Virus record (IMG/VR): IMGVR_UViG_3300032093_000289
Span: 1-41,637 of that record
Origin: a virus
DNA: 41,637 nt
Reading direction: 5' to 3' (one strand)
The translations under genes were made by a program, and so were the position numbers. The notes below the pieces were generated by a model. The model was not told the origin of the DNA, did no database searches, and saw only the letters and a program-made list of their open reading frames with translations. Of this stretch, positions 13,181 to 16,627 are shown piece by piece (position 1 is the first letter of the stretch; each line of letters opens with the position of its first letter).

Positions 13181-13297
13181 GGGCTAACCCGCAAGGAGGC
13201 CCAGCGCCAAAGCACCACCGGCAGGCTCGCCGCGGCCGTCAGCTTGGGACTGGGGTTTCTCGGTTGGGCTGGCGGCCGATCCTGTTTCCGCCCGCCT

Positions 13298-13307
13298 GTG
13301 CGTTGAG
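13298..13307 (+). promoter_or_regulatory. Late motif GTGCGTTGAG, copy 2
   Basis: 31 bases before ATG 13339 of the large terminase, the same spacing as copy 1. Flank GCCT before the motif and G after are shared with other copies. Confidence 0.6.
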
Positions 13308-13338
13308 GCCAGCCCCCGCTGGCGGCGTTGTGGCGCCC

Positions 13339-15894
13339 ATGGCACGCGGGAAAACCAGAGCGCAAGTTCAAGCGGCGGCGTCGGAGCCGCGACCGATCAC
13401 GTTCGAGCCGGACGGCTGGACGCTGGATCGCTTCCTCCTCGACAACAGCGACGCGGCGATCATCCAGGGCCCTATCGGCTCGGGCAAGACGCGCGCGGCG
13501 ATCATGCGCATGCTCAGGCATTGCTCGGAGCAGCCGCGCCAGCGGGACGGCAAGCGCCGGTCGCGCTGGATCGTGGTTCGCCAGACCTACCCCGAGCTCA
13601 AGTCGACGACCATCAACGCCTTCCTCGAGACCTTCCCGGACGGCGAGTACGGGACCATGAACTGGTCGCCGCCGTTCACCTACTATTTCGACCACGGCGA
13701 CATCGAGGCCGAGTTCATCTTCCTGGCGCTCGAGAAGGAGGAGGACGTCAAGAAGGTCCGCTCGCTCGAGGTGACGGGCGCCTACGTCAACGAGTTGCAG
13801 TACGTCGTCCTGCCGATCTTCGGCGAGATCAAGTCGCGCACCGGCCGCTACCCGAGCGTCAAGGACGGCGGCTGTACCTGGGCCGGCGTGATCGCGGACA
13901 TGAACGCGCCCGAGGCGCTGCACTGGGTGCCGATCATGTTCGGCCAGACACCCGTGCCGGACTACTTCACGCCGGACGACGTGCGCACGCACAAGCTGCC
14001 GCCCGGCTGGGTGTTGTTCAAGCAGCCGCCCGCGCTGATCGAGGAGATGGGCGATAGCGGCGAGGTGATCGACTACAAGGTCAACCCGGCGGCCGAGAAC
14101 CTGAAGTGGCTGCGCGATTCCGGCGACTATTACGCCAAGCAGATCCACGGCAAGACGAAGGCGTGGATCGACGCCAACCTGCTGAACCGCGCCGCCGCGG
14201 TGATGAAGGGCAGGGCGGTCCACCCGCTGTTCAGCGCCGACCGGCACGTCAGCCGCACGCCGCTGAAGTTCAACCCCGATCTGGACCTGTACGGCGGGTT
14301 CGACTTCGGCCTGACGCCGGCGGCCGTGTTCGGCCAGACGGTGCGCGGCCGCGTCTTCGTGCTGTTCGAGATGTACGCCGAGGACATCGGCTCGATCACC
14401 TTCGCACCCATGGTCCGGCGCGAACTGGCCACCCGGTTCCCCGGCCTCGACTTCGAGCGCGTCAAGCTGTTCGGCGACCCCGGCGGCGACGTGCGCGGCC
14501 AGGCCGACGAGCTCACGGCGTTCCAGATCTTCCGGCGCAACGGCCTGATGATCCAGAAGGCGCCGGGCGCCAACCGCTTCGCGGGCCTGCACGGGCGCAA
14601 GGAGACGGTCGACACGATCCTGAACCGGCAGGTGGACGGCTACCAGGGCCTGCTGCTGGACCCCGGCTGCCGCATGCTCGCGAGCGGCCTGCAAGGCGGC
14701 TACCAGTTCAAGGACGTCCAGTCGCCCACGGGCGTCTACAAGTCCGACCAGGTCATCAAGAACCAATACAGCCACATCTGTTTCGTGGCAGGGACGCCGG
14801 TGCTGACCCCGAAGGGGGAGGTGGCGATCGAGGCGCTGCAAGTTGGCGACCTTGTGCGAACCCCACAGGGCGCGCGCCGGGTTTCGGCGATCATGAGCCG
14901 CGATGCGCCACGACTTGTGCGGGTGACGTTCTCAAACGGCCGGTCTGTTGTTTGCACCCCGGAGCACCCGTTCGCCACGCGCCATTGTGGTTTTGTTGCA
15001 TCCGAAGCATTACAGTATGGGGACGTTCTGGTTTCGGAAGGGCAACCATGGGCCGACCCGCGATACACCCGATCCACGAGTTCAACGGAGTGCGGTACTA
15101 CCGAAAGCCGTCAGGGTACTACAAGGCCGACCACAAGCTCGGCGGCGCGTACCTTCACCGGGTTGTGTGGGCGCATCATCACGGCCCCATTCCGCCGGAT
15201 CATCACGTTCATCACATCGACCACGATCCCACCAACAACGCGATCGAAAACCTCGAGCTTCTCTCCGCGCATGAGCACGCGATTTTCCATTTTCGGGTGG
15301 ACGGCCGACTCAAGGATTACGCGAACGAGGAGTGGATGGCCAAAATCCGCGGCCTCGCGGCCGTGGCTCGGCGAGCCCCCGAGGTGCGAGCAAAAATGTC
15401 CGCAGCCGCAATCCTCGGAGCCCAGCGAGCAGTCCGAGAAGTCCGCGTCTGCGTCGTGTGCGCCAGGGAGTATTCCGGGCAGGTCAACAAGCGAAAGCGC
15501 GGGTACTGCGGAATGTCGTGCCAGGGCATCGCGCGCCGGGCCTCTGGCGTTGATGACGTTGATCGGACGTGCGTTTGCTGCGGCGCCGGCTTTCGGGCGA
15601 ACAAGCACACAAAGAAAGAGACCTGCTCTCAAGGTTGCGCGGGTCGAGTTGCTGCCTCAAGGCGACACGCCAACTCGAGTCTATGATATCGAGGTTGAGA
15701 CCGAACACGTCTTTTACGCGGCCGGCGCGCTCGTCTCCAACTGCGAAGCCTTCCAATACCTGACCCTCGGCATGGGCGAGGGGCAGAATCTGTTCTTCGG
15801 CGAGCAGCGCGCCCGGCCGGTCAACGTCAAGAGCACGGCCCGCATCTTCGACCGCGGCCCACGCCGGCTCGAGTTTTCGAGAGCGCACCGATGA
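13339..15894 (+). CDS. terL: Terminase large subunit, interrupted by an in-frame intein
   Basis: 851 aa before splicing; residues 481-801 (14779-15741) are an intein, leaving a 530-aa ATPase-nuclease. Walker A is GPIGSGKT (44-51); the ATPase acid lies near AYVNELQYV. The RuvC-like nuclease has FDFGLTP and KLFGDPGGDVRG. The final motif reads SHI-CEAFQYL once the intein is removed, and the intein sits between Ile and Cys, next to the presumed metal-binding Glu. Unspliced protein should therefore lack nuclease activity. It cuts and pumps phage DNA into the prohead. Start chosen at ATG 13339; upstream in-frame codons run into the leader with the late motif. Confidence 0.9.
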   Translation: MARGKTRAQVQAAASEPRPITFEPDGWTLDRFLLDNSDAAIIQGPIGSGKTRAAIMRMLRHCSEQPRQRDGKRRSRWIVVRQTYPELKSTTINAFLETFPDGEYGTMNWSPPFTYYFDHGDIEAEFIFLALEKEEDVKKVRSLEVTGAYVNELQYVVLPIFGEIKSRTGRYPSVKDGGCTWAGVIADMNAPEALHWVPIMFGQTPVPDYFTPDDVRTHKLPPGWVLFKQPPALIEEMGDSGEVIDYKVNPAAENLKWLRDSGDYYAKQIHGKTKAWIDANLLNRAAAVMKGRAVHPLFSADRHVSRTPLKFNPDLDLYGGFDFGLTPAAVFGQTVRGRVFVLFEMYAEDIGSITFAPMVRRELATRFPGLDFERVKLFGDPGGDVRGQADELTAFQIFRRNGLMIQKAPGANRFAGLHGRKETVDTILNRQVDGYQGLLLDPGCRMLASGLQGGYQFKDVQSPTGVYKSDQVIKNQYSHICFVAGTPVLTPKGEVAIEALQVGDLVRTPQGARRVSAIMSRDAPRLVRVTFSNGRSVVCTPEHPFATRHCGFVASEALQYGDVLVSEGQPWADPRYTRSTSSTECGTTESRQGTTRPTTSSAARTFTGLCGRIITAPFRRIITFITSTTIPPTTRSKTSSFSPRMSTRFSIFGWTADSRITRTRSGWPKSAASRPWLGEPPRCEQKCPQPQSSEPSEQSEKSASASCAPGSIPGRSTSESAGTAECRARASRAGPLALMTLIGRAFAAAPAFGRTSTQRKRPALKVARVELLPQGDTPTRVYDIEVETEHVFYAAGALVSNCEAFQYLTLGMGEGQNLFFGEQRARPVNVKSTARIFDRGPRRLEFSRAHR
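14779..15741 (+). mobile_element. Intein in the large terminase (321 codons)
   Basis: Begins with Cys1 in CFVAGTPVLTPKG (block A). Block B is VVCTPEHPFAT, with its His codon at 14965-14967. Block F is VYDIEVETEHVFYAAG from 15679, and the element ends ALVSN followed by Cys+1. All splicing blocks are in the terminase frame. The penultimate residue is Ser instead of the usual His. The middle (about 15048-15686), where an endonuclease domain normally sits, is Ser/Thr/Arg-rich with no endonuclease motif in this frame; the HNH gene is there in another frame. Confidence 0.93.
15048..15686 (+). CDS. HNH homing endonuclease nested out of frame inside the intein
   Basis: 212 aa from ATG 15048, in the -1 (+2) frame relative to the terminase/intein. 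GGAAGGG at 15036-15042 lies five bases upstream as a ribosome-binding site. An HNH core follows: HRVVWAHHHGPIPPDHHVHH with His55-His56, then Asn68 and LLSAHEH. Two zinc-finger-like Cys sets come after: C135/C138 with C154/C158, and C175/C178 with C193/C197. The stop at 15684-15686 lies inside the intein block F codons. It should nick or cut an intein-less terminase gene and drive homing of the element. Production by internal initiation is favoured over frameshifting because of the start signals. Confidence 0.9.
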   Translation: MGRPAIHPIHEFNGVRYYRKPSGYYKADHKLGGAYLHRVVWAHHHGPIPPDHHVHHIDHDPTNNAIENLELLSAHEHAIFHFRVDGRLKDYANEEWMAKIRGLAAVARRAPEVRAKMSAAAILGAQRAVREVRVCVVCAREYSGQVNKRKRGYCGMSCQGIARRASGVDDVDRTCVCCGAGFRANKHTKKETCSQGCAGRVAASRRHANSSL

Positions 15895-16319
15895 TCGAGG
15901 AAGTCGAGGTGTCCGGCGTGCCGGGCGCGTGGTTCGTGGCCTTCTACGGCAAGGGCTACCGCCAGCACTGGTGGGACTGGATCCTGCCGATGGATCGGCA
16001 GCACGTCATGGCGTTCGGCTACTCGGCGCACGCGGAGCGGTGGCTGGTCTACGACGTCACCGCCGGCCAGACCTTCATCCGCGCGCTGACGAAAGAGGCG
16101 TTCGTCTCCTGGCTGCGGATCCTGCCGGCGCACCGGAAGATCCTGCTGGTCGAGTCCGGCGTGTTCGAGGCCCCGCCCCGCTGGCGCTTCGGGTTCTGGT
16201 GTGTGCCGGCGGTGGCGCACCTGATCGGTGTGCGATCGCGTGCGTTGAGGCCGGCGGCTTTCTACCGCGATTTGCTTCGTCTAGGCGCCACCCCTGCGTT
16301 TGAGGTCACGCACTCATGA
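15891..16319 (+). CDS. Phage protein of unknown function after terminase
   Basis: 142 aa, coupled to terL by ATGA overlap. Aromatic-rich N-terminal half (HWWDWILPMDRQHVMAFGY) and a beta/alpha pattern (WLVYDVTAG, KILLVESGVFE) suggest a compact soluble domain. Its 3' end contains late motif copy 3, so the codons there are constrained by two functions. Not recognised. Confidence 0.68.
   Translation: MIEEVEVSGVPGAWFVAFYGKGYRQHWWDWILPMDRQHVMAFGYSAHAERWLVYDVTAGQTFIRALTKEAFVSWLRILPAHRKILLVESGVFEAPPRWRFGFWCVPAVAHLIGVRSRALRPAAFYRDLLRLGATPAFEVTHS
16240..16249 (+). promoter_or_regulatory. Late motif GTGCGTTGAG, copy 3 (inside a gene end)
   Basis: Lies in the 3' end of the 15891-16319 gene, 66 bases before ATG 16316. 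A degenerate copy CTGCGTTTGAGG is at 16294-16305. Confidence 0.5.
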
Positions 16320-16627
16320 TGAAGTCCGGCAAGGCCACGAAGGAGAGCGCGGCTGACGCGCGAGCCCGCGCATCTGAGCAGGCGCGCGCCGAGGCGGCGC
16401 AACTGGACGAAACGCAAACGCTGCTGCGCTCGGAAACCCTGCGCCGCATGCGCCGCTTTGGCCAGTTGGCCGGGGCATCGACCAGCCTGGCCGGGTTCTT
16501 CGGCGGTGGAGTCGGCGCCGGCGGCGGCGGCGGAGTCGGCGCTGGCCTTGGCGGCATGGACGGCGGCGGCTACGGCGGCGGGAGCATCGGCGCCGGGCTT
16601 CGAGGACTCCAGATCGGGGCGTTCTAA
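16316..16627 (+). CDS. Small virion-module protein with Gly-rich tail
   Basis: 103 aa. The first ~60 residues are helical and charged (ARASEQARAEAAQLDETQT); the rest is a long Gly-rich tail (GGGVGAGGGGGVGAGLGG). It overlaps the previous stop and ends exactly one base before the portal GTG start. Position in front of the portal is common for small structural or assembly factors; function unknown. Confidence 0.65.
   Translation: MMKSGKATKESAADARARASEQARAEAAQLDETQTLLRSETLRRMRRFGQLAGASTSLAGFFGGGVGAGGGGGVGAGLGGMDGGGYGGGSIGAGLRGLQIGAF

Follow-up and report, generated by a model that had tools for sequence, protein, structure and literature searches.

The large terminase gene (terL) of the virus record IMGVR_UViG_3300032093_000289 (41,637 nucleotides, analysed at full length and called the window here) very probably carries a composite mobile element, namely a mini-intein parasitised by an independently translated homing endonuclease. 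A Hint mini-intein appears to occupy a conserved C-terminal motif of TerL, and its conserved residues suggest that splicing is needed for TerL function. The usual endonuclease position of the intein would be taken, out of frame, by a homing-type HNH gene that is translated separately from its own start codon within the terL message. The intein frame across this gene may be kept only because terL must be read through, and the 180-odd residues of the overlap would form a disordered loop tolerating almost any sequence. The HNH protein would presumably cut terL copies that lack the intein, at the insertion site or close to it, after which repair would copy intein and HNH together and convert the +1 residue to Cys. 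The mini-intein, the out-of-frame HNH and the read-through loop are supported by sequence comparison and structure models; cutting and homing we infer from two observations, the mosaic distribution of the intein and the tie between the HNH family and terL.

The terminase intein and its nested HNH gene

The features of the locus are as follows.
13339..15894, plus strand: precursor gene of TerL, with an N-extein of 480, an intein of 321 and a C-extein of 50 amino acids (aa), matching phrog_2 terminase at 3.6e-14, with homologous TerL in phages
14779..15741, plus strand: intein, C1 to N321, with all splicing blocks in the TerL frame; TIGR01445, TIGR01443 and PF14890 match its ends
14779..15036, plus strand: N-terminal Hint half, comprising blocks A and B, from hidden Markov model (HMM) matches, the AlphaFold predicted local distance difference test (pLDDT, 95-98) and Foldseek matches to mini-inteins
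15036..15042, plus strand: Shine-Dalgarno-like (SD-like) GGAAGGG, 5 nt before the HNH ATG
15048..15686, plus strand: HNH_3 endonuclease gene, 212 aa, in the -1 frame relative to terL (PF13392, phrog_15471), with two Cys4 zinc-finger-like motifs in the C-terminal half
15061..15603, plus strand: overlap in the intein frame, a predicted disordered loop between the Hint halves (AlphaFold pLDDT about 40-60)
15667..15741, plus strand: C-terminal Hint half, comprising blocks F and G (HMM, TIGR01443), the first 20 bases overlapping the HNH 3' end
15742..15744, plus strand: +1 extein Cys codon, Val or Ala in intein-free alleles

The original prediction, made from the letters of the window, had placed every splicing block in the terminase frame and a complete 212-codon HNH gene with its own ATG and GGAAGGG in the -1 frame, and had seen no endonuclease motif in the frame of the intein. 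Its coordinates, frames and motifs proved exact in a check of open reading frames (ORFs) and in domain-profile matches. The terL ORF (13264-15894) is one ORF with no interruption, its first ATG at 13339 and its stop codon at 15892-15894, so the window does not hold a split intein of the kind found in 17 non-redundant relatives. The C1 codon of the intein starts at 14779, the last Asn codon ends at 15741, and C1, T60, H63, N321 and C+1 are all present. Across 69 aligned inteins C1, G31, H63 and N321 are invariant, every one of them outside the overlap, and the remaining catalytic residues (block B T-x-x-H and C+1) are invariant or nearly so. As no nuclease family matches the intein frame of the window, this is not a classical intein with an in-frame homing domain. 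A Hint fold is predicted with confidence (both halves at pLDDT about 94-98), and the best Foldseek matches of the intein model are mini-inteins, the DnaB and gp41-1 inteins being found at E about 6e-7.

The HNH ORF of the window matches PF13392 (HNH_3) at 5.6e-17, and the match to phrog_15471 (9.1e-35) spans nearly the whole of it. The catalytic residues H55, H56, N68 and H77 are invariant in the HNH alignment together with seven cysteines, and the stop codon falls inside block F of the intein, as had been predicted. The structural model is confident (pLDDT 93); its best match in the PDB is I-HmuI, which is weak (E 0.12). The window itself is a phage contig, whose genes include primase, exonuclease, terL, connector and major head. 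A group I or II intron was considered and rejected, with no Rfam match at E <= 0.1 within 13200-16400.

Relatives of the locus and the two overlapping frames

About 200 loci were collected by searches with the HNH family in viral and genome contigs, and were assigned to classes by profiles of HNH and of both Hint halves. In 93 loci (82 non-redundant) both Hint halves lie in one stop-free ORF with the HNH in a different frame, and all 93 share one phase; 22 loci have the Hint halves in separate ORFs with the HNH between them, and in 53 no intein was detected. The nested set extends down to 29% guanine-cytosine (GC) content. An HNH in frame with the intein, which would have spoken against the original prediction, was not found among the relatives at the score cut-off used; two weak in-frame hits (L128 and L138) emerge only at a laxer one. 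Most hits are metagenomic or viral contigs, the named ones infecting Tetrasphaera, Acinetobacter, Vibrio and others, and four nested cases come from phage records.

It could be argued that the locus is a classical in-frame HNH intein disguised by compensating indels of sequencing or assembly, which would restore the classical architecture. The probability of such an artefact is negligible, for the same phase recurs in 82 divergent loci from many samples as well as in the named records TJE1, Highwayman and LS06-2018-MD07, the HNH has a conserved start of its own and a stop within or before block F, and in locus L002 a stop codon immediately precedes the HNH ATG. Three further loci are described on their own account. 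In a Planctomycetota intein (L099:2796-3596, from a metagenome-assembled genome) an HNH of the same family is nested in the opposite phase (rel2), with 0 stops against 7.4 expected, and this is an independent case of nesting. L032 (193-1166) is closely related to nested loci, yet its Hint-C block is read in the HNH frame, near the HNH 3' end, a frame change that may be either one-indel decay or a sequencing error. The Brevundimonas phage Poludnitsa (L216:2375-2984) has an HNH gene without annotation between terL and portal.

The 639 bases of the intein frame that overlap the HNH gene are indeed free of stops, as stated in the original prediction, but the weight given to this openness comes from the relatives and not from the window. 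When synonymous HNH codons were permuted and stops counted in the intein frame, the window alone had 0 stops against 0.8 expected, with none in 37% of trials (P = 0.37); being GC-rich (63%), its open frame is not significant by itself. This result is what could be expected if GC-rich DNA simply left long frames open and the intein merely overlapped an HNH gene, with no selection on both. For the family such a coincidence is highly improbable, and it is refuted by sequence comparison with the relatives. Over the 82 non-redundant nested loci no stop interrupts the intein frame, where codon permutation predicts 1.9, whereas stops do occur in the corresponding frame of free-standing (5.2 on average) and split (6.8) relatives. 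Loci L203, L091, L204 and L011, at 29-45% GC, are stop-free (P 0.000-0.002) although their third forward frame has 25-37 stops; below about 45% GC the remaining forward frame of nested loci mostly has 10 to 37. As regards the window, both frames are still intact in its close relatives L007 and L015, although HNH identity is down to 55-61%. Inteins with another nested nuclease, described below, are also stop-free. Divergent relatives thus lend support to the predicted pair of overlapping products, a splicing element and a separate HNH protein.

Selection appears to act mainly on the HNH reading. In the overlap region of related nested loci HNH identity is 60-81% against 35-66% for the intein frame (by pair 0.64/0.42; 0.61/0.35; 0.70/0.42; 0.74/0.49; 0.77/0.52), and most of the changes are at third codon positions of the HNH. 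Between related nested loci the HNH frame is therefore under purifying selection, which had been named as a point to check. Because the HNH is conserved, the overlap is predicted to be disordered and the invariant intein residues lie outside it, the overlap can be regarded as a nuclease gene whose other reading is thus, as far as sequence and models indicate, only a spacer.

The HNH is probably made by internal initiation, since in 78 of the 82 nested loci the HNH frame is closed by a stop that lies after the start of Hint-N and before that of the HNH. An SD-like match of at least 4 nt is found near the HNH start in 49/82, and in L002, where the stop is the codon preceding the ATG, AGGAGG lies seven bases upstream. 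Several points nevertheless weigh against a parasitised mini-intein with its own translated nuclease. The nested loci are mostly metagenomic contigs; their class is partly defined by the open frame, which makes the combined P value partly circular; 33/82 relatives have no SD-like site near the HNH start; and the HNH frame of the window is open for 990 nt upstream, so that the sequence there would also allow a frameshift product. The same 990 nt favour the alternative that the HNH is made as a fusion by -1 ribosomal frameshifting from the TerL-intein, without internal initiation. The upstream stops of the 78 loci, which include L007 and L015 close to the window (stop 48 nt upstream), and the SD-like sites argue against it; a shift downstream of that stop would be compatible with them, and frameshifting is considered very unlikely on balance. 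Internal initiation in the window itself rests on L007 and L015, as its own HNH frame is open upstream.

Mobility, split inteins and a second nuclease family

Intein-free alleles at the same site, that is, uninterrupted host sites, were found in L208, L210, L211 and L212. The N-extein of L208 is 87% identical to that of the window, and that of the intein-containing L209 is 94% identical to those of L210 and L212, both intein-free. At the +1 position, alleles with the intein have Cys and those lacking it Val or Ala. That near-identical phages differ in the presence of the intein implies that it is mobile. Between L026 and L095 the HNH is 70% and Hint 71% identical, the exteins 35%. Hint and HNH have diverged together only to a moderate degree (Mantel r 0.42; partial r 0.25 once extein distance is taken into account), and the two partners have therefore probably also been exchanged.

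The HNH family is tied to terL even without an intein, because its TerL-linked free-standing members mostly lie directly behind this gene: 23/29 are 34-111 bases behind terL and two more about 615 bases behind. It is plausible, by analogy with the collaborative homing discussed for introns in PMC10448857, that a nuclease beside terL had the intein site as its target and later moved into the intein. The same position in 25/29 members would also suit a domesticated packaging nuclease that works with TerL (as HK97 gp74), homing being secondary or lost, and PMC10448857 treats the packaging and homing readings of terL-adjacent HNH genes as compatible, not mutually exclusive. Domestication is nonetheless judged unlikely: presence is sporadic between near-identical phages, the HNH moves with the intein between distant TerLs, and it belongs to the HNH_3 family with a weak structural match to I-HmuI.

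In the 17 non-redundant split loci the ORF of the C-terminal intein part (Int-C) keeps the nested phase relative to the HNH in 15 cases (P = 4e-6 against one third, relatedness ignored), and the phase of the N-terminal part (Int-N) is scattered (9, 7, 1). This pattern fits descent of the nested and the split forms from one ancestor. In the HNH tree the nested, split and free classes are intermingled (20, 13 and 22 changes, respectively), and its support is too weak to give the direction of change. Split TerL inteins around an HNH were also noticed in two named phages, Lactobacillus phage CL2 (L220:1670-2771), where Int-C and the C-terminal TerL piece are unannotated, and Brochothrix phage BL3 (L217:1936-2604), where only the C-terminal part of the HNH was matched.

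As a control for search bias the Hint N-half alone, with no nuclease, was used as query, built from six closer Hint sequences; 80 loci were returned. The 78 complete inteins among them comprise 46 with the HNH nested in the usual phase, 29 with another ORF in the other phase and 3 mini-inteins, and none of the 78 has an in-frame nuclease. The arrangement had been thought rare; in this Hint lineage the nested form is the usual one. Nine representatives of the 29 were scanned, and 9/9 match DUF559 and MTES_1575 (Vsr-like nuclease family) in the nested frame, while their host frame matches Hint or intein families. In the 14 non-redundant inteins of this second type no stop is present in the intein frame, although 5 to 12 would be expected in each (P < 0.002 each). 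Two unrelated nucleases, HNH and DUF559, have thus arrived at one and the same position within this kind of intein, each in its own phase. Most inteins of the second type appear to sit in a helicase-like DExx motif (DLIIVDE|C). The rule of no in-frame nuclease is limited to this lineage, because other Hint lineages do include in-frame nucleases; on visual inspection, the inteins in the portal of phage Cane17 and in the thymidylate synthase gene of phage PS1 appear to be of the classical form.

Individual members of this survey include L239, L257, L263, L264, L271, L277, L279, L291 and others, in which the out-of-frame DUF559 ORF is about 235-310 aa long and has the opposite phase to that of the nested HNH. 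Vibrio phage 1.194.O (L305:2001-3071) has an intein with a nested DUF559 nuclease in a helicase-like gene annotated 'coil containing protein', and more than 20 sister Vibrio isolates share the Hint match. The mini-inteins of the lineage without a full nuclease (L237:3001-3399, L296:3001-3381 and L268:248-751) are possibly empty or decayed stages; the last retains an out-of-frame DUF559 remnant.

Significance and comparison with known systems

In textbook inteins the synthesis of the fused nuclease domain is tied to translation of the host gene and to splicing. Here nuclease and intein would be separate proteins from the same DNA, as in intron homing, and the result is a long overlapping gene whose second frame is almost unconstrained except for being stop-free. 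It can be proposed, tentatively and with somewhat less than even confidence, that out-of-frame nesting of a separately translated endonuclease in an intact intein represents a third general architecture for mobile inteins, at which two or more unrelated nuclease families have arrived, and that it also links mini-inteins with free-standing nucleases on one side to split inteins on the other. If so, once the overlap frame gains stops the gene is already near a trans-splicing pair with a nuclease between the halves. Loci that have the same HNH between split-intein halves allow the origin of split inteins to be tested directly. Nested loci may be annotated simply as large terminases, the nuclease being overlooked; TJE1 and Highwayman are examples, and these two phages and Vibrio phage 1.194.O make experiments feasible.

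A literature search for inteins with out-of-frame or overlapping reading frames gave only the ShiLan paper and one genome announcement as relevant. The ShiLan domain (Arsenault, Gosselin and Gogarten 2025, PMC11855218) is an out-of-frame HNH insertion without a splicing domain. Like the HNH gene of the present case, it has its own start, lies out of frame within a host gene free of stops and is mosaic in distribution; in contrast to ShiLan, which has neither a splicing domain nor a detectable ribosome-binding site, a complete Hint intein encloses the HNH here and many members have an SD-like site, so that the locus is not of ShiLan type although its HNH is out of frame. For overlapping reading frames PMC11855218 cites Gorbalenya 1998 and, with regard to actinobacteriophages, a preprint by Gosselin et al. 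2025 (bioRxiv 10.1101/2025.01.02.630785), and the latter may describe the same arrangement in actinobacteriophage inteins with 'non-canonical architecture'. The searchable literature gave no report of how widespread the arrangement is, of its occurrence with two nuclease families in two phases, of the overlap as a spacer or of a connection with split inteins.

Further parallels lie in three kinds of element. Classical full-length inteins (PI-SceI type) carry the homing nuclease as an in-frame fused domain; the nuclease of the present intein is at the same place in the Hint fold, but as a separate protein in another frame. The fractured genes of Dassa et al. 2009 are reportedly split inteins with a homing endonuclease gene between the halves, in the order Int-N, nuclease gene, Int-C, and the DUF559/Vsr-like family found here is presumably the new endonuclease family of that work. 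The order is shared, and split-type HNH relatives exist, but the present intein is one continuous ORF overlapping the whole nuclease gene. With I-HmuI and the collaborative homing of free-standing nucleases the locus shares an HNH homing nuclease and an independent ORF in a self-splicing element; unlike in the intron-encoded HNH systems, splicing would act on the protein, which requires that no stop interrupt the host frame anywhere within the nuclease gene.
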